From: a virus
Length of the DNA: 35,858 nucleotides
IMG/VR virus record: IMGVR_UViG_3300031251_000069
Span: 1-35,858 of that record
Reading direction: 5' to 3' (one strand)
Shown here: piece after piece, positions 19,002 through 35,858 of the stretch
Numbering within the stretch: position 1 is the stretch's first letter
Layout of the letters: the number at the start of each line of letters is the position of its first letter
Notes under the pieces: model-generated
What the model was told of the DNA's origin: nothing
The model's input: only the letters and a program-made list of their open reading frames with translations
Database searches by the model: none
Translations under genes and position numbers: made by a program

Positions 19002-19041
19002 TATAAGGTAAAATGACTTAGAAAACATGCATAATATAAAC

Positions 19042-19907: not shown

Positions 19908-20605
19908 TACTCGTCATCCTTTTGGCCGCCTAAGCGGCGTCTAACTCTAGCATCACGGGCCATATGAAAATTGGTCATCGTCTGAGCTAAGTGCTTGTGA
20001 TCCTTAGATTGATCTACAGCTAGAGAGGCTTTAGCTTTATTCTGTTCATGGGCACCACTAGAACGAATAGCTTCATGTGCAATTTTCTTGGCTGTAGCGT
20101 GATCAGGAGTCTTAGCTACTTGATTAATGTGGTCCATGCTAAAAATATGGTTAGACTTGATGCCAGGTACGGCCATCTTTTCCAAGGTCTCAAGCATTTG
20201 ATCCAGAAGTTCTTCGCACTTTTTAACTGGATGCTTTTCTCTAGGTGCGTTTGTTAAATCATGTTCTTCTTCATACTTACGACGTAATCCTGACGCTCCG
20301 CTTATGCGTTGGCGGGGTTTGCCATTGATATGCTCTACATTGTCTTTTTCTTTACGAGGGTCACCACCGTGAATCTTGCCATGCTTACCACCTAATCCTG
20401 GGTTTAAACTAGGATCTGTGTGTTCACTGGAAGTATCAGGTTCATGAATCTTAGGTTTTGCTGCGCCCATTAGACCAAGCTTTGGTCTTTTACCTACGTC
20501 GGGAGAGGGAAGATTTGCAACACTCTTCTTAGACTTCATGTCAATAATCTGAGCTTTGTCCAAGCTCCACTGACCGTTCTTATCAAACTTCAAAACTTCG
20601 CTCAT
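19907..20605 (-). CDS. Basic structural-block protein with shared N-terminal tag, 232 aa
   Basis: The first 17 residues follow MSE-x-LKF-x-K-x-GQWSL-x-K, almost the same as the N-terminus of the ADP-ribosyltransferase candidate (13 of 17 identical). A long, low-complexity, Lys/Gly/Pro/His-rich linker comes next (residues about 25-120). The C-terminal half is helical (CEELLDQMLETLEKMAVPG; THHATAKKIAHEA-like spacing, seen as DHATAKKIAHEAIRSSG) and ends in a basic tail (RDARVRRRLGGQKDDE). I do not recognise the family. The shared N-terminal peptide suggests that both proteins dock to the same partner, perhaps in the virion (inference). The start is 80 bases after the sheath stop, past a terminator. 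Confidence 0.65.
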   Translation of the reverse strand: MSEVLKFDKNGQWSLDKAQIIDMKSKKSVANLPSPDVGKRPKLGLMGAAKPKIHEPDTSSEHTDPSLNPGLGGKHGKIHGGDPRKEKDNVEHINGKPRQRISGASGLRRKYEEEHDLTNAPREKHPVKKCEELLDQMLETLEKMAVPGIKSNHIFSMDHINQVAKTPDHATAKKIAHEAIRSSGAHEQNKAKASLAVDQSKDHKHLAQTMTNFHMARDARVRRRLGGQKDDE

Positions 20606-20685: not shown

Positions 20686-23550
20686 TTAAGCTGACGACGT
20701 AGCTCTTTGAAGTGTAATTGTTGCTAGAACGAAATCTATGCCCTCTACGAGTTTCACAACTACGCTAATGTTGATGGTATTGCCGACGATCTGTACTACA
20801 AGTTGCTTATAACCGTTAGGTGCATCACTTGTGCTCACTGTAATGCCTTGAGCTAGATAACCAGTCAAGATGCTGTCGCAGGTGCTTTTTACTGCTGCTG
20901 CACTCACTGTGTTCTTTACACCAACATAGATAGCTTGAAGCTGATTACGGAAGTCGTAAGCTAGAACGTCAGATGCATATAGCACGTTAGCACGATTAAA
21001 TACCCAGTTTGGATCTGCACCGTAAGTCGTATTGTCAACTACAAGGCGGAAACCACCGGTTGGTGGCTTTTCCCAGAAGGTGATGCCATTTTGGATAGCA
21101 TCGTCATACTGAGTCGCAGGATTGAAGTCATTGACAATCTGAGCAGCAGGCGTAGACATTAATTGACCAGTCTGGCGGATACCAGAAGTATTGAAGTACT
21201 TGAAGGTCATTGGTAATCCTACTGGAGAACCACCGCGTGCACCAGCTAACATACAAGCTCCTGCCCAAGGCAAGAACCATACAAGACTACCAAGAGAATT
21301 AACTTCCAACTGATCTTGGATTGCAAGTTGGCAACGAGCATCGGCGAGATTCTGAGCTTGAAGCTTACAGTTGAGGTATGTGTCATGAAGCGACAAGTAG
21401 CCTTGGCACTCAGAACGAGCCTTAGTTGTAGCTTGTAGACTCAAGAAGGTCTTGACAGATTGATGAATTGCGGCAATCGTATAGTTAGAGCTTGGATCAG
21501 TCATCAAGTCCAAGATATCCTTAGAAGCATCTCTCGAGAAGAGGGGTACAACTGAGTTCACATGGACAGCTTGAATTGCCGCCAACGCGTTAGGAATATC
21601 AGCAGATTGAGTTGCGCCGAGTGACCCACCAGCGAAGTAGGTAGGACCTTGTGGGTCTAGAAGACCGTTAACGCCCTGTCCAGAGGTCTGGATCAACTTC
21701 ACGTTAGAGCTTTGAGCAAAGAATTGCTTAATTGCGTAAGCGTCGTCCTTAAACTGAGCGGGTAAAGAACCACCTGAGCTGTTTGCCCCAACATTTGCAG
21801 CTTCATCAAGAGCACTTGGTGGTAGTTGACCTACGAGTGCACTTGGTAACGCAGCAGTCCAAAGACCAGCAGTACTTCCGTTAATGAACTGTACAAGACT
21901 ATTCATAGATGGGAAGTTAGCGAGTGGGATCGTATACTCGATAACACTGTTGTTGATCAAGAGCAGGTTGGTTGCATTAACTGTAGCTACAGGAGCAACG
22001 CTACCACCGCCGACTCTTCCGAGTTCGAGGATAATAGTTCCACCGACAGTACCTGACTCAGTAGTCAAGGCGCCAGTGTTATTGATCGTGATCACTGACA
22101 TGTCTTCAGTCTCAGATATATATAGACCAGCTAAGATATTGACAGCTGCTAGCAAACCTCCGCTTACAAGCTGAAAGTTTAAACCGTGACCATTGCGCTG
22201 TGGATTAGATCCAAGTGCTTGTGCAATGTTCAAGAACGCTGCAGTATCAGCAGAACCAGAAACCGTGAAGGTCATTCCGGAAGGAAGACCAGCACTCCAG
22301 TTACCTGCATTTGTTAGTGCACTTTGAAGCAATGCTCTCGTCACGATACCACTTGGTAATGTGAACGTGTTGTCGTTAGCGCTTGCATCACCGTTGAGGC
22401 GAAGCACCATAGTAAGACCACCACCAGCAACAATTGTTCCACCAGCTAGGGTTACAGAGGTTCCAGGGCTTGTTCCTACGTTTCCGTAGAAGAAGCTTGA
22501 ACCAGTGTTAGTAATAGTTGAAGAAGCAAGAGCAGCGAAGCCTCCTGCTGCACCCAAAAGACTTGAGCCTTGTGAATGAACTTGGGCTGCAGCTGCGTAA
22601 GTAATTGCTCCAGTTAGAGCTACCATACTACCGTTAATCGTTGCTGTCTGAGAAACTGAGATACTTACATCAGCGATAACGTTACCTTGAAAGATTGCGC
22701 CAGCACTTGAAACACCTGAGTTGATTGTAGCAGAGCTACCGACAACCCAATATATGTTAGCAGCTGTTGCGCCACCAGTTAAGATCATAGTTGGAACAGC
22801 ACCAGCACCAGCACCAGTCACCAATGTGCTTGAAGTAATGATGACATAAGTTCCCGCGCCATTGAAGGTGAGAGTTCCACTTGAAGTTCCTGCTAAGCTT
22901 GCTGCACTAGTGCTATAAACACCAGGAGTCAAGGTTTGACCGTCGAGTACTGCAGCAATTGGAGTCGCAGTTTCACCAGTGAATGCAAGGTAAGCAGCAA
23001 GCGCATTTGCTTCAGCTTCTTGAGCGAGAGCATCATTTAAGTGCGGAGATCCGCTGACAATCATGTCGAATGGAGCACCAGTAAGGTTGAATGAGGCAGT
23101 TGAAGTTGTCTGTGCTGGTTGAGCTGGAACAGCGACATCTTGATACGTGATCAAGTTTCCACTAGTTCCATATTTAAGCGACTGCAGAGTTCCAAAATTA
23201 TTTGCTAAAGCGAGCGAAGACTGTGTGGAGTTATTTGTCTTGTAGATGTAAACCGTCTGCGCTCCACCTGGCACTGCTCCGTCAGCAGCTGGTGCAAACA
23301 AGAAAGAGCAAGCGTCAACGATTGGACCACTTCCATATAGCGCTTGAATTGCAGGAAGTTGATCTGGTGTAAACTTACTGTTCGAGATATCAGAGATAGT
23401 AGATCCAGGAGGACCTGCAGTTGATTCGCCGAAGATGGCGACTAGTCCAGTTGGTCCTACAGGGAAGCCACCGCTCTTGTCGATGATCTCCTGAGAGTAA
23501 GCACCTGGTTTCATAATGGTCGCACCATTAAAGGTTACATTGATAGACAT
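20686..23550 (-). CDS. Tail sheath protein with inserted, circularly permuted DUF3494 domain, 954 aa
   Basis: The N-terminus has the sheath pattern (MKPGAYSQEIIDKSGGFPVG, LVAIFGESTAGPPGS). Residues about 600-954 form the conserved core and C-terminal handshake region (FAGGSLGATQSADIPNALAA, NGITFWEKPPTGGFRLVVDN, NRANVLYASDVLAYDFRNQL, VVKLVEGIDFVLATI). The sheath contracts to drive the tube through the envelope. About 210 extra residues (about 165-375) are a DUF3494 domain whose segments are in permuted order, inserted just after YGTSGNLITY in the variable outer domain. Many sheaths are 380-700 residues, so 954 reflects inserts. A standard AGGAG site precedes the ATG. The gene ends before an intrinsic terminator. 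Confidence 0.9.
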   Translation of the reverse strand: MSINVTFNGATIMKPGAYSQEIIDKSGGFPVGPTGLVAIFGESTAGPPGSTISDISNSKFTPDQLPAIQALYGSGPIVDACSFLFAPAADGAVPGGAQTVYIYKTNNSTQSSLALANNFGTLQSLKYGTSGNLITYQDVAVPAQPAQTTSTASFNLTGAPFDMIVSGSPHLNDALAQEAEANALAAYLAFTGETATPIAAVLDGQTLTPGVYSTSAASLAGTSSGTLTFNGAGTYVIITSSTLVTGAGAGAVPTMILTGGATAANIYWVVGSSATINSGVSSAGAIFQGNVIADVSISVSQTATINGSMVALTGAITYAAAAQVHSQGSSLLGAAGGFAALASSTITNTGSSFFYGNVGTSPGTSVTLAGGTIVAGGGLTMVLRLNGDASANDNTFTLPSGIVTRALLQSALTNAGNWSAGLPSGMTFTVSGSADTAAFLNIAQALGSNPQRNGHGLNFQLVSGGLLAAVNILAGLYISETEDMSVITINNTGALTTESGTVGGTIILELGRVGGGSVAPVATVNATNLLLINNSVIEYTIPLANFPSMNSLVQFINGSTAGLWTAALPSALVGQLPPSALDEAANVGANSSGGSLPAQFKDDAYAIKQFFAQSSNVKLIQTSGQGVNGLLDPQGPTYFAGGSLGATQSADIPNALAAIQAVHVNSVVPLFSRDASKDILDLMTDPSSNYTIAAIHQSVKTFLSLQATTKARSECQGYLSLHDTYLNCKLQAQNLADARCQLAIQDQLEVNSLGSLVWFLPWAGACMLAGARGGSPVGLPMTFKYFNTSGIRQTGQLMSTPAAQIVNDFNPATQYDDAIQNGITFWEKPPTGGFRLVVDNTTYGADPNWVFNRANVLYASDVLAYDFRNQLQAIYVGVKNTVSAAAVKSTCDSILTGYLAQGITVSTSDAPNGYKQLVVQIVGNTINISVVVKLVEGIDFVLATITLQRATSSA
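22426..23058 (-). other. Circularly permuted DUF3494 (ice-binding-like) domain in the tail sheath
   Basis: Residues about 165-325 hold the parts that normally come second: a helix (AQEAEANALAAY), LTPGVYS, LTFNGAGTYVIITSSTLVTG, ATAANIYWVVGSSATINSG and ATINGSMVALTGAITY. Residues about 331-375 hold what is normally the N-terminal part: LLGAAGGFAALASSTITNTG, then GNVGTSPGTSVT. The break falls right after PGTSVT, where the J-like copy continues as GFPPGT and a helix. The two copies in this window are otherwise very alike. Confidence 0.85.
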
Positions 23551-27452: not shown

Positions 27453-28262
27453 TTATGGTTTAACTAAGGTTTCGGCAGCTGATGGTAAGAAGTCACGACG
27501 AACCAACAATTGTTGAGGCAACCTACGGGCAACTTTCTGTCCATTTACTAGTTCTTGTGTGATTCTTAGCTCACGTAGGGTCTGAACAACTAAATAAACA
27601 GGGTGTGAATAGAATGACCATGTAAGAACCTCACCGTGCATAGTATGAGGATCATAGAACGGCTGTCTTCCGTCTACCCACACTATGTCTCCAGTAGTAT
27701 TAATGTTGAAATCCACTCCCTGCAGATAAATTTTCTCTACCTGACCGTTTTGTAGGATTGAGCTGACTCGATCTACCTTCTCAACAGGATATCTAAGTTG
27801 CTGAATATTACCAGGTCTTGGCTCATATTCTTTAAGTTCCCATAAGCGAACAGTAAAGTCGGGAATAGTAAGTTTGTCAAATGCGTTGAAGTCTGCTTCA
27901 GTTCCATCTGGGTATTCAGTTGGTAGAGTAACTACAGCAGTACCTATCTCCCATACGCCGTGAGCTTCAAATGTCTTTTGGATAGCGTTACCTGTGAACG
28001 TGCCCCAAATCTCTTTAGGATCATAGTGCTGGAAACCGTTGTTATCGCAGAAGATACAGTTGGGTTCATGAGCATTGCTATCAAGCGTTAAGATATTTGG
28101 GCATGGAGTTGCCTTCTCATGAACAAACCTAATTCCTCTGTTCTTGAGGAGATCGTCAAAGTTGGCACCCCTGATACTTGGATCTGGGTTATACATTGGC
28201 ATCTCACTCGGTGTGTTAGTCGGATAAGATGGATATATCTGTGTTGGTTTGTCTTCAGCCAT
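27453..28262 (-). CDS. Neck/head-completion candidate, 269 aa, first gene of the minus-strand block
   Basis: A mostly beta-rich soluble protein with C54, C69 and C72 (PNCIFCDN), which could hold a metal. Its core includes WGTFTGNAIQKTFEAHGVWE, LTIPDFTVRLWELKEYEPRP and VEKIYLQGVDFNINTTGDIV. The C-terminus is basic (ARRLPQQLLVRRDFLP). As the first gene before connector and sheath genes it is probably a neck protein, but the family is not recognised. A TAGGAG site lies about 12 bases before the ATG, with an extended -10 element further upstream. Confidence 0.6.
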   Translation of the reverse strand: MAEDKPTQIYPSYPTNTPSEMPMYNPDPSIRGANFDDLLKNRGIRFVHEKATPCPNILTLDSNAHEPNCIFCDNNGFQHYDPKEIWGTFTGNAIQKTFEAHGVWEIGTAVVTLPTEYPDGTEADFNAFDKLTIPDFTVRLWELKEYEPRPGNIQQLRYPVEKVDRVSSILQNGQVEKIYLQGVDFNINTTGDIVWVDGRQPFYDPHTMHGEVLTWSFYSHPVYLVVQTLRELRITQELVNGQKVARRLPQQLLVRRDFLPSAAETLVKP

Positions 28263-28286
28263 GCGGCGACTCTGCTCCTACGTTTA

Positions 28287-28295
28287 ATTATACCA
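28287..28295 (-). promoter_or_regulatory. Extended -10 promoter for the structural block
   Basis: The minus strand reads TGGTATAAT here, a TGn-TATAAT extended -10 element, 25 bases before the first structural gene. No good -35 element is seen, as is common for extended -10 promoters. It lies in the divergent gap with the plus-strand gene at 28332. Confidence 0.65.
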
Positions 28296-28331
28296 TCAAC
28301 AAACATCAACTAATGCATCTGTACAATAGAG

Positions 28332-28595
28332 ATGGGATCCGATTCTATGGACAGTATTAAAATCTTAGAACGTATAGTCGCAGAAGAAGGTAATTGCTGC
28401 TGGGCAACCCAATCAGTTTGCAAACAGTGCCCATTGGGCAGTTTGATTAGGTCTGACAATGGCGGACTCATGAGTTGTGTAGAAGCACTTAACATAGATG
28501 GACTAAGTGAAGAAGAGGCAGATATAAAGTATAAAGAAGCCGCTATCAGTAAACTTGCCGACATGGTCCTAAATAAGATTATTGAGGCCGACTGA
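28332..28595 (+). CDS. Four-Cys small protein 1, 87 aa
   Basis: An acidic helical protein with ILERIVAEEGNCCW and a cysteine cluster (C-x-x-C-P in VCKQCPLG, then a later Cys in LMSC). The next gene has the same plan (ILEEIV...G-x-C...C-x-x-CPF...C), so they are tandem paralogs. The cysteines could bind zinc or an iron-sulfur cluster; the function is unknown. The start may be ATG 28332 or ATG 28347 (MDSIKILERI, better aligned with the paralog). It ends in a TGATG overlap with the next gene. Confidence 0.65.
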   Translation: MGSDSMDSIKILERIVAEEGNCCWATQSVCKQCPLGSLIRSDNGGLMSCVEALNIDGLSEEEADIKYKEAAISKLADMVLNKIIEAD

Positions 28596-28846
28596 TGGCA
28601 CTCACTACTCTAGATAAAGACATATTAGAAGAGATCGTTACAACTGACGGGCATTGTATGAGTTCAAAGAGATGTGAGAAGTGTCCCTTTCGTGCTATAT
28701 GTCTTCCAGAGTTTTTAAACCCGATCCCACCAAGTCGGGAACAACGACTTAAGATGGCTCAAGATGTTCTCGCTCATCACTATCTCATCGACGATGAAAT
28801 AGAAGTAGAAGACATAAGGAAAGATTTCTTATGGGACAAAAAATAA
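28595..28846 (+). CDS. Four-Cys small protein 2, 83 aa
   Basis: Paralog of the preceding gene. It has DILEEIVTTDGHCMSSKRCE followed by KCPFRAICLP, giving four cysteines in a C-x5-C-x2-C-x5-C pattern. The C-terminal half is helical and acidic. The start overlaps the stop of the first paralog, so the two are translated together. A metal- or cluster-binding regulator is possible; nothing more can be said from the sequence. Confidence 0.7.
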   Translation: MALTTLDKDILEEIVTTDGHCMSSKRCEKCPFRAICLPEFLNPIPPSREQRLKMAQDVLAHHYLIDDEIEVEDIRKDFLWDKK

Positions 28847-28989
28847 GTCTAATCATTATAGATAAGCAGCTGCAAGATCAAGCAAGAATGAACCTATACA
28901 TGTTCATGCTAAAACTTCTTCATCCTAATGATCCCCGCATCAAGGTCTTCGCTATCGTTCCCCAGCCCCTTAGCTCCAAACAGTGTTAA
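28831..28989 (+). CDS. LLxKL-family mini-protein B candidate, 52 aa
   Basis: A 52-codon frame starts with ATG at 28831, inside the last 16 bases of the previous gene, with AAGGAAAG 7 bases before it. It contains MNLYMFMLKLLHPNDPRIKV, a weaker match to the motif family (Leu in place of the usual Gly/Lys). The short Ile-rich N-terminus (KISLIIIDKQ) differs from the others. The ribosome binding site and the overlap support real translation. Confidence 0.55.
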   Translation: MGQKISLIIIDKQLQDQARMNLYMFMLKLLHPNDPRIKVFAIVPQPLSSKQC

Positions 28990-29034
28990 AATAGAAGTAC
29001 AGTCACGCTCAGTGATTGCAGTAGAGGAGGATGT

Positions 29035-29277
29035 ATGTTAAACTTAGTTCTAACCATAGTTACCTCTGCTGTTCTACACACCCTCAGCATCAAAGGAAGT
29101 CATATGGAAAACCGTATCGACCAGATCGACGTTAAGAAAGACCACAAGGAGTTAATCGCTCTTTTCTATCGTATTGAACTGAGCACCTTTGTCCAGATTC
29201 TTCTATATCAACACTCCCAGCAGGGTGGAGCTACTAAAGAACTATGTTCTACTCAAAACTCACCGCAGATCAAGTAG
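29035..29277 (+). CDS. LLxKL-family mini-protein C candidate, 80 aa
   Basis: ATG 29035 has a strong GAGGAGG site. An alternative ATG at 29104 (MENRIDQ) has AAGGAAG. If the first start is right, the N-terminus (MLNLVLTIVTSAVLHTL) is a hydrophobic helix that could insert in the membrane. The middle has KELIALFYRIELSTFVQIL, a divergent form of the shared motif. The last 34 bases overlap the next gene. Function unknown. Confidence 0.55.
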   Translation: MLNLVLTIVTSAVLHTLSIKGSHMENRIDQIDVKKDHKELIALFYRIELSTFVQILLYQHSQQGGATKELCSTQNSPQIK

Positions 29278-29528
29278 CTGTTACCTACACATTATTTAGG
29301 TTTCTAGAGAGACTGAGAGTTATCGGTCATCTCCGGGCTCACACTGAGCAGGCTGAAGTAGACGGTGGCGACATCTTTGGAGACTACGAACTTCATGATT
29401 TTACTGGAGCCAACTACTCCATCGTAAAAGATGAGTATACTTCTAAGAAGGGATATATAGATGCAATCATTGCGCTCGAAAGAATTTTCGGCAGAATCAC
29501 AGTACAACAGCTCCGCGGCACTGATTAA
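29244..29528 (+). CDS. LLxKL-family mini-protein D, 94 aa
   Basis: Contains YTLFRFLERLRVIGHLRAH, a version of the LLxxLxKL-G/K-I/V motif near the N-terminus, then an acidic stretch (AEVDGGDIFGDYELHDF) and a helical C-terminus (YIDAIIALERIFGRITV). It overlaps the genes on both sides (34 and 68 bases), as do many members of this set. Confidence 0.6.
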   Translation: MFYSKLTADQVAVTYTLFRFLERLRVIGHLRAHTEQAEVDGGDIFGDYELHDFTGANYSIVKDEYTSKKGYIDAIIALERIFGRITVQQLRGTD

Positions 29529-29697
29529 TCTTTTATATAAGCTAAAGGTTATGAGTGGAAACAAGCATTTAGCTCATCATCTTTTGATAAGACATCGAGC
29601 ACTTCAATTATTGAAAGCGCTAGAAGAAGATTTGTATACAAATACAGGCTTTGACGATTTTATCGGTTTGAGCAACCAAGTGGATCCTACTTCTTAA
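29461..29697 (+). CDS. LLxKL-family mini-protein E, 78 aa or slightly shorter
   Basis: Contains AALINLLYKLKVMSGNK, a good match to the shared motif, then a helical basic part (HLLIRHRALQLLKALEEDLY). ATG 29461 gives a 68-base overlap with the previous gene; a later non-ATG start before the motif is also possible. The gene ends 11 bases into the convergent minus-strand gene. Confidence 0.6.
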   Translation: MQSLRSKEFSAESQYNSSAALINLLYKLKVMSGNKHLAHHLLIRHRALQLLKALEEDLYTNTGFDDFIGLSNQVDPTS

Positions 29698-29902
29698 AGG
29701 CCTTCTGATATTCCTTAAGTGATGTTGGATTCATATAGATTTTAGTCGGCGTTCCGAAATTATTCTGCGCTATCATCAACATGTCAAATAAATCTTGCTC
29801 AGATAGGCCAGCAAAAATGTCGGCACTCTTGATACCCAGCTTCCGTAGGAGATTTTTTAGATTCCCTGTGGCTCGCTCTTTGTTGACACCTGTGATGTTC
29901 AT
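29687..29902 (-). CDS. LLxKLG-family mini-protein F, 71 aa
   Basis: Has NLKNLLRKLGIKSADIFAGL, a canonical form of the motif, at residues 14-33, followed by a helical region (LFDMLMIAQNNFG) and a basic end (SLKEYQKAFKK). The ATG overlaps the stop of the upstream 83-aa gene (ATGA), so they are co-translated. It converges on mini-gene E. Confidence 0.7.
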   Translation of the reverse strand: MNITGVNKERATGNLKNLLRKLGIKSADIFAGLSEQDLFDMLMIAQNNFGTPTKIYMNPTSLKEYQKAFKK

Positions 29903-30150
29903 CTTCTCAATCTCTCTACGCTTCGCTTAGTTGCCTTGACAAATCTATTTCCTGTTGATTCAATGACAGATGTACTGTCGATATTGCAACGCTGCCCATC
30001 TACGCCTACTGCACCTACAATAGGTGCATTGGAACCTGATAAACCACTCAGCGAGACATTGTACTGGCCCCTGATGGGAGATCCAGCACGATTCCAATGC
30101 TTGTTTCCCCAGGGATCGTGAAAACGCCTACTCCATCTAGATATCTTCAT
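29899..30150 (-). CDS. Small basic Gly/Ser-rich protein, 83 aa
   Basis: A basic protein with RWSRRFHDPWGNKHWNRAG, a Gly/Ser/Val-rich middle (LSGLSGSNAPIVGAVGVDG) and a basic C-terminus (KATKRSVERLRR). It lacks the LLxKL motif. It overlaps mini-gene F by an ATGA, the main reason for accepting it. A TATAGT/TATAAC-like -10 lies just upstream with almost no leader and no Shine-Dalgarno, suggesting a leaderless message. Confidence 0.5.
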   Translation of the reverse strand: MKISRWSRRFHDPWGNKHWNRAGSPIRGQYNVSLSGLSGSNAPIVGAVGVDGQRCNIDSTSVIESTGNRFVKATKRSVERLRR

Positions 30151-30240
30151 GTAGTCGTTATACTATAAAATCAACCCGCCACCCCCACCCCTAAGTTGAA
30201 CCATAGTTAACTACTAAGTCCAGTTCAGTGCACAGAGTGC

Positions 30241-30441
30241 TTAATCGAAGGTGGATCCATAAAACCATTCCCTGTACTCCTTACTGTATCCGCGCGAGCA
30301 CGGATAAGGTTTTCCCTCGTACATGATAGAGGGGTAAAGTTCAAGCTTAACAAGAAGCACCAGCAGCTTGTACCGCACGATGCTGTTGCACCTAAAATAA
30401 CTGTCATCCATTATTGTTCTACCGCTCATAAAATGCTCCAA
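30241..30441 (-). CDS. LLxKL-family mini-protein G, 62-66 aa
   Basis: Contains RYKLLVLLVKLELYPSIMYE, a clear motif match, then an aromatic-rich tail (SKEYREWFYGSTFD). ATG 30429 (MSGRTIM) has a GGAG site 6 bases away and is the better start; ATG 30441 is the alternative. It overlaps the end of mini-gene H. Confidence 0.65.
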   Translation of the reverse strand: MEHFMSGRTIMDDSYFRCNSIVRYKLLVLLVKLELYPSIMYEGKPYPCSRGYSKEYREWFYGSTFD

Positions 30442-30637
30442 TCTTTGCTATCCCGCTCCGTACCACCGTATACATGCTGCAATCCTCGCTGCTGATATCT
30501 ATAAACGCATCACCCTCGCTGAGTGTGATAGGTTCCGGTATGCGCACCTTTAGTTTAGTGAGAAGTGCTAGTAGACAAGCTATCTTTAAATTTACAGGTG
30601 GCCTCCAACGTAAATGCTTTATTAATATTGTCACCAC
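30419..30637 (-). CDS. LLxKL-family mini-protein H, 72 aa
   Basis: Contains IACLLALLTKLKVRIPEPIT, a clear motif match near residue 20, followed by a beta-like part (GDAFIDISSEDCSMYTVVRS). It overlaps mini-gene I by 7 bases and mini-gene G by 11 to 23 bases. The N-terminus is basic (IKHLRWRPP). Confidence 0.65.
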   Translation of the reverse strand: MVTILIKHLRWRPPVNLKIACLLALLTKLKVRIPEPITLSEGDAFIDISSEDCSMYTVVRSGIAKIGAFYER

Positions 30638-30840
30638 GCCCCCATGTATGTACCTACCGGCAAATCTCTTCGCGCGGACTTGACGTCGAGTTTAGCAAGC
30701 AAAAGACAGAGTTTCAGATATTGGGTATTGCGGGTCTTCGCCTCGGGCCACAGCAAGGCGCGGAGCAGGCGTTTGCGTAGATGTTTGTCAGTCTCGTCGG
30801 GACCTCGCGCGATACCAAGGCATGATGCTATGTGGTCCAT
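30631..30840 (-). CDS. LLxKL-family mini-protein I, 69 aa
   Basis: The C-terminal third contains YLKLCLLLAKLDVKSARRDL, matching the motif. The N-terminal part is basic and helical (DKHLRKRLLRALLWPEAKTR). The ATG follows the stop of mini-gene J by 2 bases, and the end overlaps mini-gene H by 7 bases. Local G+C is higher here than in the structural block. Confidence 0.6.
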   Translation of the reverse strand: MDHIASCLGIARGPDETDKHLRKRLLRALLWPEAKTRNTQYLKLCLLLAKLDVKSARRDLPVGTYMGAW

Positions 30841-30842
30841 GT

Positions 30843-31043
30843 TCAGGTCCCGCTTCCATGTAAAAGCTTGTGAAGTAGTTCAAAAAGGGGAGCGTGATAG
30901 TCGTGTTGGCGTCGATTGTACAGCCAGGGAGCTGGGCAGGAGCAGGAAGGTGTATCAACATACCCGGTTATGTTAGCTGTGTAGTTGAGAGGGTGTCCGT
31001 TTAGCTTGATTGTAGCTTTGGCACCTGTGAGGGGTTTGGTCAT
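30843..31043 (-). CDS. Hybrid mini-protein J: tail-tube-like N-terminal segment plus LLxKL-like end, 66 aa
   Basis: Residues 4-28 (PLTGAKATIKLNGHPLNYTA, then NITGY) align with the conserved start of the three tube-like proteins (FITGANARISVGGKTFAYAA; FVTGDKLRIILDGKTIAFAT; FMSGARCTLKINNQLVGFAF). The last residues (APLFELLHKLLHGSGT) resemble the shared mini-protein motif. The start overlaps the stop of mini-gene K (TAATG). It may be a fusion or the trimmed remnant of a fourth tube gene. A different frame past residue 35 (from about 30945) also reads sensibly (TIDANTTITLPFLNYF), so an old frameshift is possible. Confidence 0.55.
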   Translation of the reverse strand: MTKPLTGAKATIKLNGHPLNYTANITGYVDTPSCSCPAPWLYNRRQHDYHAPLFELLHKLLHGSGT

Positions 31044-31213
31044 TAGTAGACTCCAGGAGTGTATACGGCGGTAGGGTGGTGGTGGTCGTGAGCGGAGCGA
31101 ACGCCAAGCTTGCGAAGCATGGACATAAGGCCATTGTAGCTGTTGCGCTGGTGTAGCCTCTTGATGTCCTTGTAATGTGGACCATGTATTGGGAAGTATA
31201 CTGCGATCGCCAT
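31043..31213 (-). CDS. LLxKLG-family mini-protein K, 56 aa
   Basis: A 56-codon frame with NGLMSMLRKLGVRSAHDHHH, a canonical motif match, and an end in VYTPGVY. It is the first gene of the minus-strand run K-J-I-H-G, whose members overlap or nearly touch. The stop TAA overlaps the next ATG. A TATAAT lies 12 bases upstream of the ATG, with no Shine-Dalgarno between, so the message may be leaderless. Confidence 0.7.
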   Translation of the reverse strand: MAIAVYFPIHGPHYKDIKRLHQRNSYNGLMSMLRKLGVRSAHDHHHPTAVYTPGVY

Positions 31214-31225
31214 AATATTTTATAT

Positions 31226-31231
31226 ATTATA
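31226..31231 (-). promoter_or_regulatory. -10 element (TATAAT) for the K-J-I-H-G run
   Basis: The minus strand reads TATAAT here, followed by an AT-only stretch to the ATG at 31213. No convincing -35 is seen. Confidence 0.45.
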
Positions 31232-31257
31232 CGAAAAGATGTACCGGTATCTTGTGT

Positions 31258-31415
31258 TTACCTATTAGGCACATGGTGGTGGGCCCTTGTTTATAGGGAA
31301 ATAGGTAATATACACAAAGTTTTCGCCGTGAGTACCCGTCCCGACTCAAGGGATCCCTTGTAAGGCAAGGCCAGCGGGCCCTGTTTCAGCACGATGCACC
31401 TTACAAACCTGAAAC
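31258..31415 (+). ncRNA. Structured leader upstream of the collagen-like lipoprotein gene
   Basis: Several exact pairings occur in this 158-base stretch. TTACCTATT (31258-31266) pairs with AATAGGTAA (31300-31308). CAAGGGATCCCTTG (31347-31360) is a 14-bp palindrome. TTGTAAGG (31358-31365) pairs with CCTTACAA (31399-31406), and GTTTCAG (31383-31389) with CTGAAAC (31409-31415). The last two cross, so they are either alternatives or a pseudoknot. A leader that can switch structure, or a separate small RNA, would explain this. It ends 25 bases before the ATG, upstream of an AAGGAG site. Confidence 0.5.
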
Positions 31416-31440
31416 TATAAACGATCATAAGGAGATACGT

Positions 31441-32034
31441 ATGAGAGTATACTTTGAGTCTGATAAGGTGAACGATCGGTTTGATGTGGCGAAGTTGGGA
31501 CTAGTAGGCATCGGCCTGATTCTAGCAATGAGCATGTCTGCGTGTGGAACTGTCATAGGTCCTGCTGGTCCTAAGGGAGACACGGGAGCAACCGGATCTG
31601 CTGGTGCTGCTGGATCTAACGGTACTAACGGGATAGATGCATCGTGCTCTGTTAGTGCCGTGCTTCCTAACCTGATAGCACCTGCTGGTGGGAGTTTGAT
31701 TGCGTGCTCTGATGGGACACATAGTCTGGTATTGAATGGATCTAACGGTATCAATGGAACGAACGGAGTTAACGGAGTTAACGGAGTTAACGGAACTAAT
31801 GGTACGAACGGATCTAACGGTACGGTAGTGACGGCGATACAGTTCTGCAGTGGTGTTGTGGGATCATATCCATCCACCTTCCCGGAGATAGGGTTCTGCA
31901 TAAACGATGAGATATATGCCGTGTACAGTGCCAACGGTGGGTTCTTGACGAAGGTATTGCCTGGGACTTGGAGTTCTGATGGCATCAATGCATCGTGCAC
32001 CTTCACAGTTGGTCCTCACTGCCAAGTGAACTAA
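31441..32034 (+). CDS. Collagen-like lipoprotein, 197 aa
   Basis: Residues 18-35 are a signal peptide (LGLVGIGLILAMSMSAC) with a lipobox-like end and Cys35 as the likely lipidated residue. Two collagen-like Gly-x-y runs follow (about 40-65, including GPAGPKGDTGATG; about 100-128, with NGV/NGT/NGS triplets). Between and after them are Cys-containing globular parts (six Cys after residue 60). The protein should sit at the cell surface or in the periplasm of the infected cell. Phage lipoproteins of this kind often change the host surface or block superinfection (inference). An AAGGAG site lies 7 bases before the ATG. The GTTAACGGA-type DNA repeats encode the second run and may vary in copy number. 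Confidence 0.8.
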   Translation: MRVYFESDKVNDRFDVAKLGLVGIGLILAMSMSACGTVIGPAGPKGDTGATGSAGAAGSNGTNGIDASCSVSAVLPNLIAPAGGSLIACSDGTHSLVLNGSNGINGTNGVNGVNGVNGTNGTNGSNGTVVTAIQFCSGVVGSYPSTFPEIGFCINDEIYAVYSANGGFLTKVLPGTWSSDGINASCTFTVGPHCQVN

Positions 32035-32083
32035 GTTGCCTCCTCGGTGTATATCGCCTGGCCATGGATTGGCTGGGCATACA

Positions 32084-32099
32084 CTGACACTGCTACGCC
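32084..32099. repeat. 16-bp intergenic element, copy 1
   Basis: CTGACACTGCTACGCC, identical in four copies. Here it lies after the collagen-like gene and is followed 16 bases later by CCCGACTCGATA (32116-32127). Confidence 0.8.
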
Positions 32100-32148
32100 C
32101 AGGTAGGGTACTACTCCCGACTCGATACATAGTTATAAGGAGAACGAT

Positions 32149-32313
32149 ATGCCGAAACAAAAGTTGCTTGACCAGATCAATGAACAGATTTGGGACGAGA
32201 ACCTGAGTCTATCAGAAGTTGTGAACATGTTGGAAGGATATCTTGAGAAGTTAGACGACACAGTTCTGACTCAAATCCTAGAAGAGTCAAAGAGATTAGA
32301 ACGCAACTCATAA
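32149..32313 (+). CDS. Small acidic helical protein, 54 aa
   Basis: A 54-codon frame with a good AAGGAG site 8 bases before the ATG. It is strongly helical and acidic (LLDQINEQIWDENLSLSEVV, YLEKLDDTVLTQILEESKRL). It begins a small operon: the next gene starts 9 bases after its stop, with another AAGGAG. Function unknown; the length and helix pattern would fit a small binding protein. Confidence 0.65.
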   Translation: MPKQKLLDQINEQIWDENLSLSEVVNMLEGYLEKLDDTVLTQILEESKRLERNS

Positions 32314-32322
32314 GGAGAGAAT

Positions 32323-32553
32323 ATGGACAAGCGATTCAATCGACGAAGACCTGAAGCGTATCGTCTTCGGTGCTACATGGATGGACTGAGACAAGCTGAA
32401 TCTACAACAGATGAGCAATGGCTGATGACGTGGGTGAGAGTTTGGGAGAGCGGACGAGACACTGAGTTTGTTATGAGAGATGTATTCATCGCTTACCTGA
32501 AGCAATGCATCTTTGAGGAATTAAACCAAGTATTGAAGGAGGAAGCAGCATGA
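32323..32553 (+). CDS. Small helical protein, 76 aa, unknown function
   Basis: A basic N-terminus (KRFNRRRPEAYRLR) followed by Trp-rich helices (DEQWLMTWVRVWESGRDTEF, FIAYLKQCIFEELNQVLKEE). It has an AAGGAGA site and a 4-base ATGA overlap with the next gene. No family recognised. It belongs with its neighbours to a block of small early-type phage genes. Confidence 0.65.
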   Translation: MDKRFNRRRPEAYRLRCYMDGLRQAESTTDEQWLMTWVRVWESGRDTEFVMRDVFIAYLKQCIFEELNQVLKEEAA

Positions 32554-32723
32554 AGGACCTAGATATGAGTGACACGATGGCGATGTTCCGAGAATACCTA
32601 GATATGAGGGACTATGCCATGGATATGATAGATACTTACACCAACGAGGAGATTGCCCAGATGGTTCGCGAGGGTATTCTGACGATAGATGAGGTTGAGA
32701 GCGGACTACGAAGGAGGATGTGA
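32550..32723 (+). CDS. Small Met/Asp-rich protein, 57 aa
   Basis: An acidic, Met-rich helical protein (MSDTMAMFREYLDMRDYAMD) ending in a basic tail (SGLRRRM). It has an AAGGAGG site and an ATGA overlap with the preceding stop. The last codons include the AAGGAGG used by the next gene. Function unknown. Confidence 0.65.
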   Translation: MKDLDMSDTMAMFREYLDMRDYAMDMIDTYTNEEIAQMVREGILTIDEVESGLRRRM

Positions 32724-32724
32724 T

Positions 32725-32838
32725 ATGAGGCGAACATGGTGGGATACGATGTGCAACTTATGTTTGGTTGGTCTAGCAATATGGGCGATTGTGAGTGCGA
32801 TGCAGGTCTTCGGAGAGTTGGCAACGATAATAAGATAG
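32725..32838 (+). CDS. Single-pass membrane peptide, 37 aa
   Basis: A 37-codon frame one base after the previous stop, with AAGGAGG 6 bases before its ATG. It has a basic N-terminus (MRR) and one hydrophobic stretch (CLVGLAIWAIVSAMQVFG) long enough to cross the membrane. The topology should be N-in by the positive-inside rule. It could be a holin-like or membrane-acting peptide, but size alone does not show this. Confidence 0.6.
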   Translation: MRRTWWDTMCNLCLVGLAIWAIVSAMQVFGELATIIR

Positions 32839-32845
32839 TAGATGT

Positions 32846-32874
32846 GGAGAGCAAGGTATAGAGCCTTGCTCTCC
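32846..32874 (+). terminator. Strong hairpin after the membrane peptide gene
   Basis: GGAGAGCAAGG (32846-32856) pairs perfectly with CCTTGCTCTCC (32864-32874) across a 7-base loop. No long U-run follows, so it may be a processing or stability hairpin rather than a full intrinsic terminator. The second 16-bp element starts 15 bases later. Confidence 0.6.
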
Positions 32875-32888
32875 TATACCTATTACTA

Positions 32889-32904
32889 CTGACACTGCTA
32901 CGCC
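32889..32904. repeat. 16-bp intergenic element, copy 2
   Basis: CTGACACTGCTACGCC, identical to copy 1, with CCCGACTCGATA following at 32958-32969. It lies upstream of the 151-aa conserved protein. Confidence 0.8.
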
Positions 32905-33060
32905 ACACCCCCGACACTAGAGTATAGATCTAATACCAATTTCGGGATCTAGTATTACCCGACTCGATATTAGGTTGTAAGCAAGATGATGGTTCAGAGT
33001 AATAAGATTCTGAATCTAATCAAGCACATAACAAATGGTAATAACATAGAGGAATATATT

Positions 33061-33516
33061 ATGACCAAGATGACACAAAAAGAAGCAGTATTTCAAGCAG
33101 TAGTAAATGTCTGTGGCGAACCCGATGGCGCAATCACTCCTAGCAAGGAGCAACGAGCATCTGTGAATCAGATCTTGTTCGAAGGTTTCCGAGCAGGTTC
33201 TATCGAACTTGATCGTGAGTATACCGACTCTGAACTCAAAGCATATGTGAGTGGATTGCAATCCAACTGGCTTCGCAAAGACAAGCGCCTGAACGGTGGA
33301 ACTCAGTATGTCGCCAAGAACCCTGGTTCGAGAGCAGGTTCGACTGACCCACAAATCAAGGCGATGAGAGCGCTGCTTGCAACCAAGACCGATGTCGCCG
33401 AACGCGCTGAGATCCAAGCGTTCATCGATCGCCGAGTCGCTGAAGTGAAACCAGCCAAGACCATCACCATCAACGTGGCTGATCTTCCAGCTGAACTCCA
33501 GCACCTCGCTGACTAA
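33061..33516 (+). CDS. Conserved phage protein, 151 aa, function unknown
   Basis: I choose ATG 33061 (MTKMTQKEAVFQAVVNVCGE) because AGAGGAA lies upstream; a longer frame from 32986 lacks a site. It has helical parts (PSKEQRASVNQILFEGFRAG), a well-marked segment (LKAYVSGLQSNWLRKDKRLN, then GGTQYVAKNPGSRAG), DPQIKAMRALLATKTDVAER and a beta-like end. I recall near-identical wording in proteins of cyanophages and other marine myoviruses, where it has no assigned function. It is flanked by copies 2 and 3 of the 16-bp element and is probably transcribed alone. Its codon use is more G+C-rich than that of the tiny genes. Confidence 0.75.
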   Translation: MTKMTQKEAVFQAVVNVCGEPDGAITPSKEQRASVNQILFEGFRAGSIELDREYTDSELKAYVSGLQSNWLRKDKRLNGGTQYVAKNPGSRAGSTDPQIKAMRALLATKTDVAERAEIQAFIDRRVAEVKPAKTITINVADLPAELQHLAD

Positions 33517-33622
33517 GTCTGATAAGTGTAATGGGTAGGACTTCGGTCCTACCCAACCTTTCAGTTGGTAGGACGAACGGTCTTAATATATCCACCTAAC
33601 GGTGGAGACCTAGTCCTGCCAG

Positions 33623-33638
33623 CTGACACTGCTACGCC
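33623..33638. repeat. 16-bp intergenic element, copy 3
   Basis: CTGACACTGCTACGCC, identical to copies 1, 2 and 4. A degenerate form of the second box (CCCGAAT, 33654-33660) follows. Confidence 0.8.
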
Positions 33639-33838
33639 ACACACCCACCCAATCCCGAATCTATATGTAAGCAAGCGATACACGCACAGCTAATGTGTGC
33701 AGACAAGGAATGATACCTCTGTCAGGTAAGTGGTTGATCACCACAAAGGAGCTATCAAGCTCAAGGATGAGCCATAATTACCTATTTTGCCCCTAGGGAA
33801 ACTCTCTGATTCCATCCCAACTACGCCCCGATCTACTA

Positions 33839-33854
33839 CTGACACTGCTACGCC
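33839..33854. repeat. 16-bp intergenic element, copy 4
   Basis: CTGACACTGCTACGCC, identical to the other copies. No CCCGACTC box follows. It lies about 130 bases before the first gene of the right-hand mini-gene cluster. Confidence 0.8.
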
Positions 33855-33900
33855 CACGCTCAGGTCCATGTCAGCTCCCCACCAGGACACTAATCTCCTG

Positions 33901-33942
33901 ATATAAACACCCTATATAGCCCACTAATTCTCATATAAACAC
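33901..33942 (+). promoter_or_regulatory. Tandem AT-rich direct repeats, possible promoter region of the right-hand mini-gene cluster
   Basis: ATATAAACAC occurs at 33901-33910 and 33933-33942, and each copy is followed by a TATATA-type run. Both contain -10-like hexamers. The palindrome CCTATATAGG (33962-33971) overlaps the AGGAGG site of the next gene. Confidence 0.4.
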
Positions 33943-33982
33943 TATATATCCTGATCTTATTCCTATATAGGAGGACCGAATA

Positions 33983-34198
33983 GTGTCCAATACAGACCTG
34001 AAGCGCCTCTTAAATATCCTGAGTGCTCTCGTAAATAAGGCCGATGGCTATCCGATACAAGCCTGGAGAGGGAGTAGGAGAAGGGAAGAGATGTGGCCAT
34101 ACTGGTATGTTGGACAATATCGACTTAGGATTAGACTTAGTGAGGCCACTCAGAGGGCGTCGGTCTCACCGGGGCTTTCTAAGGGGCCTAGTCAATGA
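33983..34198 (+). CDS. LLxKL-family mini-protein L, 71 aa, GTG start
   Basis: The GTG at 33983 has a perfect AGGAGG 8 bases upstream (33969-33974), which decides the start. The N-terminal part has DLKRLLNILSALVNKADGYP, a related but looser motif. A basic and aromatic region follows (RGSRRREEMWPYWYVGQYRL) with a less ordered end. The last bases overlap the next ATG (ATGA). Confidence 0.65.
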   Translation: MSNTDLKRLLNILSALVNKADGYPIQAWRGSRRREEMWPYWYVGQYRLRIRLSEATQRASVSPGLSKGPSQ

Positions 34199-34341
34199 AA
34201 TCAACAAGTTATATTGTCCAAAGAGTCCAAGGGGAAGGTATGTATAGTAAGCTTCCAGTATCCATTCGGCGCCTCTTTGTGCTCCTACGGAAGCTGGGCA
34301 TTAGGGGTACTCCTTGGTTCGTATATGGGCGTAATGAATAG
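34195..34341 (+). CDS. LLxKLG-family mini-protein M, 48 aa
   Basis: A 48-codon frame starting in an ATGA overlap with mini-gene L. The C-terminal half has IRRLFVLLRKLGIRGTPWFV, one of the clearest motif copies, and ends YGRNE. The N-terminal half (STSYIVQRVQGEGMYSKLP) is unrelated to other members. Confidence 0.7.
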   Translation: MKSTSYIVQRVQGEGMYSKLPVSIRRLFVLLRKLGIRGTPWFVYGRNE

Positions 34342-34387
34342 CTTTGTAGGGTATGCTTTATAGCGTATGTATGGGGAGGAAGAGATT

Positions 34388-34954
34388 ATGGTAGCAATAG
34401 CAAAGAAGAAGAAAAGAGTGCTTATTACTAGAGAAGACCTGATCAAGCTGTCACACCCTTATCAGGTACGGTTTGCTTGCTTCTGTGCTAGGCAGGTATT
34501 ACACCTAGTAAAAGAAAAAGATCACGCTGTGTGTAATACTGCAATAATAACAGCAGAGAAGTGGCTTGTAGGAGAAGTTACGATTGAGGAATGTAGATTA
34601 GCTTCTGCTACTGCTGCTGCTTATGCTCATGATGTTACTTATGCTGCTTATGCTGTTGCTTATGCTGCTAATGCTGCTAATGCTTATGCTACTTATGCCG
34701 TTGCTTATGCCGTTACTTATGCTGCTGCTAATGCCGCTACTACTGCTTCTGCTGCTGCTTATGCTACTGCTTCTGCTGCTTCTGCTTATGCTGCTTCTGC
34801 TTCTGCTACTAATGTTGTTGCTACTGCTACTTATGCTGCCTTTCCTACTAAAGAGAGACAGAAACTCATTGATGAGCAATGGGATCTCTATGAGGACTTG
34901 TTGAACATTGATAAGTGCTTAGAAGATGCTGTTGGGTTAGGAGAGGAGGGGTGA
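34388..34954 (+). CDS. Ala/Tyr-rich repeat protein, 188 aa
   Basis: ATG 34388 is chosen because GGAGGAAGAG lies just upstream. Residues 1-70 are a globular part (RVLITREDLIKLSHPYQVRF, ACFCARQVLHLV, ITAEKWLVGEVTIEECR). About 85 residues of Ala-rich helix with regular Tyr/Thr/Ser/Asn follow (from ATAAAYAHDVTYAAYAVAYA). A short acidic end resumes normal sequence (RQKLIDEQWDLYEDLLN). Phage proteins with 'W L . G E . T . E E . R' followed by AAYAAYAA-type repeats are common; I recall them near genes of unknown function. The repeat is written mostly as GCT-rich triplets (34605-34845), which may be prone to length change. A long amphipathic helix is the likely fold. Confidence 0.7.
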   Translation: MVAIAKKKKRVLITREDLIKLSHPYQVRFACFCARQVLHLVKEKDHAVCNTAIITAEKWLVGEVTIEECRLASATAAAYAHDVTYAAYAVAYAANAANAYATYAVAYAVTYAAANAATTASAAAYATASAASAYAASASATNVVATATYAAFPTKERQKLIDEQWDLYEDLLNIDKCLEDAVGLGEEG

Positions 34955-35205
34955 ATAGCTTGCCACATGTAAAGCAATTCTGCAGCAGTTGTAGGTATTA
35001 CATATACTATAAGTGGTATGAGTATGTAGTATTCCCTCGCGGTTCCTGGTACCACGAATGGGCTATGAATGGGGTTAGGTTGAGTACCCCTTATGCGAAG
35101 CGTAGCGGGTGTATGGGTTGCGCCCAGGTGAGCATGATCCATGCTCAGGTGCTAGGTATGCTGCTGTGGAAGCTAGGGGTAAAGATTGTGCCAGATGCCG
35201 ACTAA
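34951..35205 (+). CDS. Zinc-ribbon protein with C-terminal LLxKLG motif (mini-protein N), 84 aa, GTG start
   Basis: The GTG at 34951 follows GAGGAGGG and overlaps the previous stop (GTGA), which I prefer to the longer ATG frame from 34915. Two Cys pairs (C11-x2-C14 and C54-x2-C57) suggest a zinc ribbon around an aromatic-rich middle (YYIYYKWYEYVVFPRGSWYH). The C-terminus is QVLGMLLWKLGVKIVPDAD, a canonical motif copy. It shows the motif can be joined to another small domain. Confidence 0.7.
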   Translation: MNSLPHVKQFCSSCRYYIYYKWYEYVVFPRGSWYHEWAMNGVRLSTPYAKRSGCMGCAQVSMIHAQVLGMLLWKLGVKIVPDAD

Positions 35206-35209
35206 GGGT

Positions 35210-35326
35210 GTGAGTACTAACTCATTGTTAATGCTACTTTACAAACTGAGGATGTTTAGTCCACGTTATATAAGTTGGGCTCAAATGTACCACTACAGTC
35301 GTCGAAGGGGTAAGAGCGATGAGTAA
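35210..35326 (+). CDS. LLxKL-family mini-protein O, 38 aa, GTG start
   Basis: A 38-codon frame starting with GTG 4 bases after the previous stop. It is almost only motif plus tail: NSLLMLLYKLRMFSPRYISW, then AQMYHYSRRRGKSDE. The tail pattern Y-I-S-W-x-x-M-Y-x-Y is shared with the next gene (Y-T-S-W-x-x-L-Y-x-Y), so the two are tandem duplicates. The end overlaps the next start by 8 bases. Confidence 0.65.
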   Translation: MSTNSLLMLLYKLRMFSPRYISWAQMYHYSRRRGKSDE

Positions 35327-35483
35327 TAGGGTTAAGAGCAATAGCGTCAAGTATTTGTTAATAATGTTAAATAAGTTGGGAATACATAGTTCACAGCCAC
35401 TTTATACAAGTTGGTTTGAACTATATGGCTATACAGTGCGGGTGCAGACAAAGACTGAGCGCGCAACCTTGATCAAAGGTTGA
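35319..35483 (+). CDS. LLxKLG-family mini-protein P, 54 aa
   Basis: A 54-codon frame with VKYLLIMLNKLGIHSSQPLY, a canonical motif copy, then TSWFELYGYTVRVQTKTER. It aligns beyond the motif with mini-protein O. The start lies inside the last codons of O, where GGGGTAAGAGCG may serve as the ribosome binding site. Confidence 0.7.
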   Translation: MSNRVKSNSVKYLLIMLNKLGIHSSQPLYTSWFELYGYTVRVQTKTERATLIKG

Positions 35484-35507
35484 ATGCACTAAGAAGGGGA
35501 GAACAAT

Positions 35508-35690
35508 ATGAGCGATGGAGTGAGAATCTGGACAGGTAAGGCTAAGCGTAGGCAGCTTGCCATGGAATATAGAACATATAAGTTGATTTACCTCTTGAAC
35601 AAACTTAAACTAGTACCTGATGAGTTCGATGGCGACTGGGAAGAAGTATTTCGCTGCTACGTATATAGGATACTAAATTGGAAGGAGTGA
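35508..35690 (+). CDS. LLxKL-family mini-protein Q, 60 aa
   Basis: Contains TYKLIYLLNKLKLVPDEFDG, a clear motif copy, and a C-terminal helix rich in aromatic residues (WEEVFRCYVYRILNWKE). AAGGGGAGAA precedes the ATG. The N-terminus is basic (GKAKRRQLAMEYR). The next gene starts one base after its stop. Confidence 0.7.
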   Translation: MSDGVRIWTGKAKRRQLAMEYRTYKLIYLLNKLKLVPDEFDGDWEEVFRCYVYRILNWKE

Positions 35691-35691
35691 T

Positions 35692-35858
35692 ATGAAGTAT
35701 GAATATAGTTGGCAGCGTGATGGTTTGATGCGCTTGTTACATAAGCTTGGTGTGCACCGAGACCCGCTGTGGGACATGATAGACGAGTTTAGAGAGTTGT
35801 TTAACAAGAATATCATCAACTCTCCCACTATAGTGATTGACTCTATACCAACAATAGA
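35692..35858 (+). CDS. LLxKLG-family mini-protein R (runs off the window)
   Basis: ATG 35692 follows GAAGGAG. The frame is open to the window end (55 codons). It contains DGLMRLLHKLGVHRDPLWDM, a canonical motif copy, then a helical part (IDEFRELFNKNIINSP). The cluster therefore continues beyond the window. Confidence 0.68.
   Translation, partial: MKYEYSWQRDGLMRLLHKLGVHRDPLWDMIDEFRELFNKNIINSPTIVIDSIPTI

Follow-up and report, generated by a model that had tools for sequence, protein, structure and literature searches.

What do the tiny genes crowded at one end of a phage genome fragment have in common, and what do their differing parts do? The fragment, hereafter the window, is the single IMG/VR virus record IMGVR_UViG_3300031251_000069 (G000), analysed over its whole length of 35,858 bases. 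The record is classed as linear, so the window is probably a fragment; it is probably a 35.9-kb piece of the roughly 175-kb genome of a phage with a contractile tail. Among annotated cultured phages the nearest relative found is Myxococcus phage Mx1, a distant one (protein identity about 29–32%). A first-pass annotation had proposed that a set of mini-genes at 28831-35858 shares one helical motif between unrelated flanks. We find that 15 good tiny genes in the window share LxxLLxKL-[G/N]-[I/V]-x-S, and that several of the flanks, rather than being unrelated, are recognisable segments of phage virion proteins. This mimicry of capsid, tail tube and sheath changes the functional reading of the family.

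A family of mini-genes with one motif

A 12-column profile made from the window's own motif copies gave 12 matches of at least 14 bits within 28262-35858 and none within 1-28262, against a mean of 0.17 in dinucleotide-preserving shuffles. After refinement (consensus L-[LIF]-x-[LF]-L-x-K-L-[GN]-[IVL]-[KRI]-S) the window held 16 such matches, with 0.4 expected from shuffles. Fifteen were accepted; the sixteenth, at 16835-16945, has no ribosome-binding site and is probably a chance match. The first-pass annotation, with about 15 clear and three weaker members, had overlooked 19027-19197 (+), and two of the weaker members (28831-28989 and 29035-29277) fall under the threshold. The positions of both nevertheless correspond to motif-bearing genes of relatives, and the former also resembles one in sequence. 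The six loci named at that stage all carry the motif as described, and the family does occur on both strands, in overlapping neighbours, with the motif at the N-terminus, in the middle or at the C-terminus. The genes are as follows.

19027-19197 (+): motif mini-gene, 56 amino acids (aa) (LIMLLLQLGVID), 20.3 bits; in a gap between tail genes and outside the interval first annotated
28831-28989 (+): divergent member, 52 aa (LYMFMLKLLHP), under the profile threshold; resembles a motif-bearing gene of relative L021 (MGQKI...LYMLLRKLL) at the equivalent place
29035-29277 (+): possible divergent member (ELIALFYRIELSTF), under the threshold; a weak assignment by position only, that of the relatives' LLYFLRDLGIKS class
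29244-29528 (+): motif mini-gene of the 'LRVIG' class, 94 aa, 18.6 bits; orthologues in many relatives (15-sequence alignment)
29461-29697 (+): motif mini-gene, 78 aa (LINLLYKLKVMS), 24.5 bits; tail loosely like the capsid N-terminal helix, by eye
29687-29902 (-): motif mini-gene, 71 aa, 28.0 bits; C-terminal half mimics major capsid protein residues about 234-270
30241-30429 (-): motif mini-gene, 62 aa (LLVLLVKLELYP), 18.8 bits, with a ribosome-binding site
30419-30637 (-): motif mini-gene, 72 aa (LLALLTKLKVRI), GTG start, 17.0 bits
30631-30840 (-): motif mini-gene of the N-terminal 'GIARGPDETDKHLRKRL' ('GETD') class, 69 aa, 24.2 bits; possibly a baseplate-J-like segment
30843-31043 (-): type-B mini-gene, 66 aa, tail-tube mimic followed by CSCP and LFELLHKLLH; tube profile E-value (E) 7.9e-4
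31043-31213 (-): motif mini-gene, 56 aa (LMSMLRKLGVRS), 24.8 bits; weak sheath-like pieces at both ends (MAIAVYF..., TAVYTPGVY), by eye only
34195-34341 (+): motif mini-gene, 48 aa (LFVLLRKLGIRG), 26.4 bits, with a ribosome-binding site
34960-35205 (+): motif mini-gene, about 81 aa, Cys-rich, C-terminal motif (LGMLLWKLGVKI), 22.8 bits; clusters with a gene of relative L009
35195-35326 (+): motif mini-gene, 43 aa (LLMLLYKLRMFS), 22.5 bits
35319-35483 (+): motif mini-gene, 54 aa (LLIMLNKLGIHS), 26.0 bits, with a ribosome-binding site
35508-35690 (+): motif mini-gene, 60 aa (LIYLLNKLKLVP), 21.2 bits, with a ribosome-binding site
35692-35858 (+): motif mini-gene, at least 55 aa (LMRLLHKLGVHR), 26.1 bits, with a strong ribosome-binding site; cut by the end of the record

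Relatives were sought with the window gene for a 269-aa virion structural protein (phrog_1004, E 1.7e-25), which returned 72 (L002–L073); six of the largest (G001–G006, 147–177 kb) and Mx1 were read whole. The proposal of an expanding set of phage mini-proteins, with one common helix and a variable remainder, is supported by 12–46 matches of at least 14 bits in each of the six and almost none elsewhere: G001 46 (shuffle mean 2.0), G002 45 (0.8), G004 29 (2.2), G005 29 (2.4), G006 13 (1.6), G003 12 (0.8) and Mx1 1 (0.2). An exact pattern back-translated from the motif matches only 16 stretches in the whole of IMG/VR, almost every one from this lineage, and in 85,000 bacterial and archaeal genomes it was found at scattered single places and in one 146,658-base contig. 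The family is thus nearly confined to one phage lineage, being absent from Mx1 and almost all other IMG/VR records. The contig (LNEN01000305.1, filed in a Cytophagales bacterium metagenome-assembled genome) carries many motif genes, as in relative G005, and appears to be phage DNA inside a bacterial assembly. Across 22 relatives an island of 2–20 mini-genes lies no more than about 9 kb from the 269-aa gene, and particular classes reappear at corresponding places; other members are dispersed over the genome.

A cultured or bacterial source for the family was considered and set aside: INPHARED held no match for the query used, and the bacterial matches are mainly scattered and single. Scans of representative minis against Pfam and PHROGs gave no confident match save the virion-protein PHROGs matched by mimic segments, the motif profile reached at best E 0.44 against PDB, and a PDB fold search with two AlphaFold2 models found nothing. 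These results for representatives agree with the initial impression that no such family had been described. The literature contains assembly blockers and virion-protein sensors, with no comparable family found, and the combination of a mini-protein family with virion-protein mimicry has not been described before.

Translation signals and selection

Because the open reading frames (ORFs) are very short and lie in a region without known domains, they might be frames left open by chance, or a DNA repeat that only looks protein-coding. We consider this explanation already refuted and give it next to no weight. Pairwise DNA identity among the window's motif copies is 16.4 of 36 positions, against 16.3 +/- 0.26 with random synonymous codons, so the motif is conserved only as protein, as the varied codons of the copies had first suggested; a repeated element is ruled out, since nucleotide conservation does not exceed the level that the peptide implies. 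A Shine-Dalgarno-like site precedes 75 of 139 members, compared with 432 of 1,963 control ORFs (p 4e-15). Long ORFs cover about half of each of the four rich genomes, yet only 32 of the 146 members there overlap them. Between the near relatives L034 and L035 (97–98% identical) the motif ORFs show 16 synonymous and 13 non-synonymous changes (p 3e-5), that is non-synonymous divergence (pN) of 0.010, synonymous divergence (pS) of 0.050 and pN/pS of about 0.2 with 0 stops, a result from one pair and 29 changes. The shuffles, ribosome-binding sites, overlap and pN/pS together rule out chance frames, and near-confinement to one lineage argues the same way. Shuffled sequence, which would have counted against the family had it yielded equally many motif frames, gives almost none, and the disruption by stops that might have been met in relatives is absent from this pair. 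Given the ribosome-binding sites, the avoidance of long genes and the purifying selection, we regard the members as genuine genes; the sequence evidence supports their being translated and maintained by purifying selection. A larger parent protein with the motif was also considered and rejected, as long ORFs carry it barely above the shuffled level (16 against 9).

The shared helix

Motif positions 1–8 are amphipathic (moment 0.58, against 0.37 when shuffled), and in 62% of cases Gly or Asn follows at position 9, a pattern that looks like an amphipathic helix with a Schellman-type stop. In AlphaFold2 models of two different classes the motif is helical, and the helix stops at or close to the Gly or Arg-Val step (predicted local distance difference test, pLDDT, 74 and 73; predicted template modelling score, pTM, 0.57 and 0.30); in the 29244-29528 (+) protein the helix spans residues 8–23 and is followed by strands (pLDDT 74). 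A hub gene was sought by co-occurrence, and the 73 candidates common to the four rich genomes and absent in Mx1 were not discriminating.

Virion-protein mimicry in the flanks

With the motif masked, the minis were scanned against 103 families of long proteins from these phages, and practically all confident matches fell on the capsid, tube and sheath profiles. At E <= 0.01 there were matches for 11 of 328 motif ORFs, against 0 of 6,560 shuffled ORFs. Other small ORFs gave 11 of 16,232: seven are tail genes, truncated or genuine, one is a tail-tube-like ORF, and three are additional mimic minis whose motif is degenerate (G002-97394, G006+38287 and G001+176173). Counting weaker matches and cases judged by eye, the recognised mimics number about 20. 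In the window the masked 29687-29902 (-) protein matches the capsid profile at E 8.9e-5, and its class is represented by a 9-sequence alignment. The copied stretches are residues 1–20 of the sheath (MAINVxFNGATIYKPGxYS), strands at 12–40 of the tube (TGAxAxIKxNGKxxAYAxxVSY) and two capsid regions, the N-arm at about 47–80 (ESLExTLKSVTFDMKNLKxW) and residues 234–270. The window's own genes for the tail proteins concerned are listed here.

17260-17862 (-): tube-like protein of the tube-b family, phrog_3776 at E 1.4e-5; mimicked by minis
19252-19815 (-): tube-like protein of the tube-a family; mimicked by minis
20686-23550 (-): tail sheath, 954 aa, phrog_279 tail sheath at E 2.1e-27; N-terminus of the sheath family mimicked by minis of some relatives

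Independent support for mimicry comes from PHROGs, as a mini of L038 matches phrog_3776 (E 1.7e-4), the PHROG that the window's own tube matches, and one of G002 weakly matches phrog_752, a major head protein (E 0.06). The mimicked segments are better conserved than their proteins on average: 0.89 against 0.63 for sheath, 0.69 and 0.73 against 0.53 and 0.57 for the tubes, and 0.86 and 0.81 against 0.77 for capsid. Compared with the parent genes, mimic DNA in 18 cases is mostly at the random-codon expectation, which argues that the mimicry is old and kept as protein; two sheath mimics, from L010 and G001, show somewhat more DNA similarity to their parent gene (z values of 3.0 and 2.0). The idea that the mimics are pseudogenes, truncated or duplicated from capsid, tube or sheath genes, was rejected on this DNA result and on the purifying selection seen in L034/L035, and recent duplication of structural-gene fragments is mostly rejected by the DNA identity of the mimics.

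The sheath protein of the window also has an inserted domain (residues about 155-335) resembling ice-binding proteins of the DUF3494 type (PDB 6eio_A, E 1.6e-18), and a similar stretch, judged by eye, seems to be present in the 2,585-aa baseplate-like protein at 231-7988 (-).

Probable exchange of mimics on one scaffold

A type-B subclass has the mimic first, CSCP next and LLHKLLH last. The mimic is of tube in the window and L010, of the capsid N-arm in G002 and of sheath in G001, and is not recognisable in L027/G004; all of these genes lie 2–4 kb from the 269-aa gene. The 'GETD' class, present also in L002, L010, L018, L027 and G001, is the gene next to type B (overlapping it or no more than about 150 bases away) in the window, L010 and L027/G004, and lies about 0.5 kb from it in G001. 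In G002 type B has no recognisable 'GETD' neighbour, so exact orthology is less certain there. From this position and neighbourhood, a single scaffold probably bears, at one genomic place, a mimic that differs between phages. The 'GETD' class itself has no homologue among the long ORFs of these phages, and its best INPHARED match is baseplate gpJ at E 0.07 only.

Neighbouring genes

A second short tag, the N-terminal 'MSEvLKFdKNGQWSLeKa', stands on several otherwise unrelated proteins per genome (window 17866-18411 (-) and 19907-20605 (-); also G001, G002, G003, G004, L009 and L027). The tag, possibly a sorting signal, is also found on an island gene of 94–97 aa that lacks the helix motif. A family beginning MTKMTQKEAVF..., apparently with several paralogues per genome, occurs near the mini-gene island (window 33061-33516 (+); G002 99057, 106806, 111099 and 124691). 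Also encoded in the window are a protein that begins like a lipoprotein and has collagen-like G-x-x / NGTNG repeats (31441-32034 (+)) and one with a long Ala/Tyr/Val/Thr low-complexity run (AYAAYAVAYA..., 34388-34954 (+)).

Discussion

Our preferred reading, which we hold tentatively and at somewhat less than an even chance, is that the minis are two-part adaptors whose recognisable subset acts as interface decoys, interfering with assembly in the first place and deceiving host sensors in the second. One part would be the common short amphipathic helix (LxxLLxKL), stopped by Gly/Asn and a hydrophobic residue and placed anywhere in the chain, which most likely docks all members to one shared partner. 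The other would be a fast-changing binding segment that, in the about 20 recognised cases, copies a conserved stretch of capsid, tube or sheath. As such stretches are likely to make subunit contacts, the mimic members are probably interface decoys: the segment would cover the surface through which virion subunits touch, or fill the pocket in which some other protein binds these subunits, with the helix bringing in the common partner. The purpose would by first choice be to block or redirect virion assembly of competing or co-infecting phages and, as a close second, to deceive host sensors. The wider joint reading, that a genome-wide set of tens of minis forms a modular decoy toolkit of a docking helix and interchangeable virion contact mimics, exchanged at fixed loci and directed against the assembly of rival phages or against host sensors of virion proteins, we think possible but a little more doubtful.

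Several observations weigh against the adaptor reading. Most flanks match nothing, about 310 of the 403 motif matches having clustered with no other, so mimicry may be what only a minority of members do. The confidence of the two AlphaFold2 models is modest. Docking to one shared partner, though the most likely role of the helix, we infer, and the likely contact-surface role of the mimicked segments is suggested by what is generally known of such virion proteins. The residue that precedes a conserved Trp is Met in 38, Phe in 27 and Leu in 14 of 79 capsid sequences from the wider group; all five capsid-N-arm mimics have Leu, whereas the four own capsids checked have Phe or Met, and at two variable sites the capsid mimics diverge from the capsid protein of their own phage. 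A search of the 79 sequences for own-or-foreign specificity found no foreign target, and the capsid-N-arm mimics may share one ancestor.

Stopping another phage's assembly has precedents among mobile elements. Tab blocks tail assembly by acting on the tape measure protein (PMC10884400) and Tai is likewise a tail-assembly blocker (PMC11364771); both are single genes of prophages, satellites and phage-inducible chromosomal islands (PICIs), some with counter-defence partners (PMC10884400, PMC11364771). The minis resemble them only in how they may work, and we claim no membership: by description they are set apart from such single genes, and those tested have no Pfam or PHROG similarity. On the host side CapRel recognises the major capsid protein (PMC9712102), and DSR2 is activated by monomeric tail tube and inhibited by the single phage-made protein DSAD1 (PMC11087589). 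Here too the likeness is one of working, in that capsid and tail tube are both mimicked by minis; unlike DSAD1, these form a family of virion-protein pieces with a common helix. A further comparison is with effector families defined by one short motif, which are also many, small, fast-changing and otherwise dissimilar; the minis differ in being phage-encoded, in having as their motif an amphipathic helix that ends at Gly/Asn and may lie anywhere in the chain, and in mimicking virion proteins. We know of no inhibitor family made of virion-protein pieces joined to a common helix, and of no sensor of contractile sheath.

That last point bears on the alternative that the minis are decoys for bacterial sensors of capsid or tail-tube monomers, the mimic binding without activating while the helix recruits an inhibitor or blocks activation. 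Two of the three mimicked proteins are detected by the sensors named above, and the mimics copy well-conserved stretches, change quickly and sit in an accessory-like island; set against this are the sheath mimics, the majority of members without a recognisable mimic and the chance that a short fragment triggers a sensor instead of blocking it, and we judge the account unlikely, if the least so of the alternatives. Somewhat less likely is a role as regulators or chaperones of the phage's own assembly, keeping capsid, tube and sheath subunits apart until late infection while tethered by the helix to a phage hub. The targets are indeed the phage's own main self-assembling proteins and the island lies beside the virion gene cluster, but type B swaps the mimicked protein between relatives, Mx1 builds the same kind of virion without the family, and a factor in close co-evolution with its own phage's assembly would not be expected to differ from the capsid at its variable positions, as the mimics do.

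The internal proteins of T4, several small and fast-changing proteins with a common short N-terminal targeting sequence that is removed by the prohead protease, offer a model for a further explanation, in which the mimic segments are attachment signals that carry the minis in or on the particle into the next host. The likeness, a short common sequence with the rest differing, is drawn from general knowledge and not from sequence comparison. Capsid, tube and sheath are all virion parts, and many small effectors with one tag would resemble cargo sorting; yet the motif of the minis, unlike the T4 sequence, is not fixed at the N-terminus but lies anywhere in the chain, the mimicry in their flanks extends to tube and sheath as well as capsid, and a virion-like segment is lacking in most members, so that we hold the cargo account to be less probable again. 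Least favoured of these functional accounts, and improbable in our view, is a gene nursery in which fragments of structural genes and random sequence are joined repeatedly to a self-spreading helix module and are mostly functionless individually. It would accommodate the orphan flanks and the extra DNA similarity of the two sheath mimics, but not readily the purifying selection, the random-codon DNA identity of the motif and most mimics, or the conservation of classes across diverged relatives.

If the adaptor reading is true, this virus conducts its conflicts through small modular proteins built from one docking helix and swappable virion contact pieces. These would reveal weak points of virion assembly or of virion sensing, provide ready-made candidate peptides for inhibiting the assembly of capsid, tube and sheath, and account for some of the many tiny genes of unknown function in large phages. 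Whatever their purpose, the minis form a family confined to one lineage, with up to about 45 members per genome, that Pfam and PHROGs do not reveal and that ordinary annotation has apparently missed, which illustrates the cost of ignoring genes of fewer than 60 codons.

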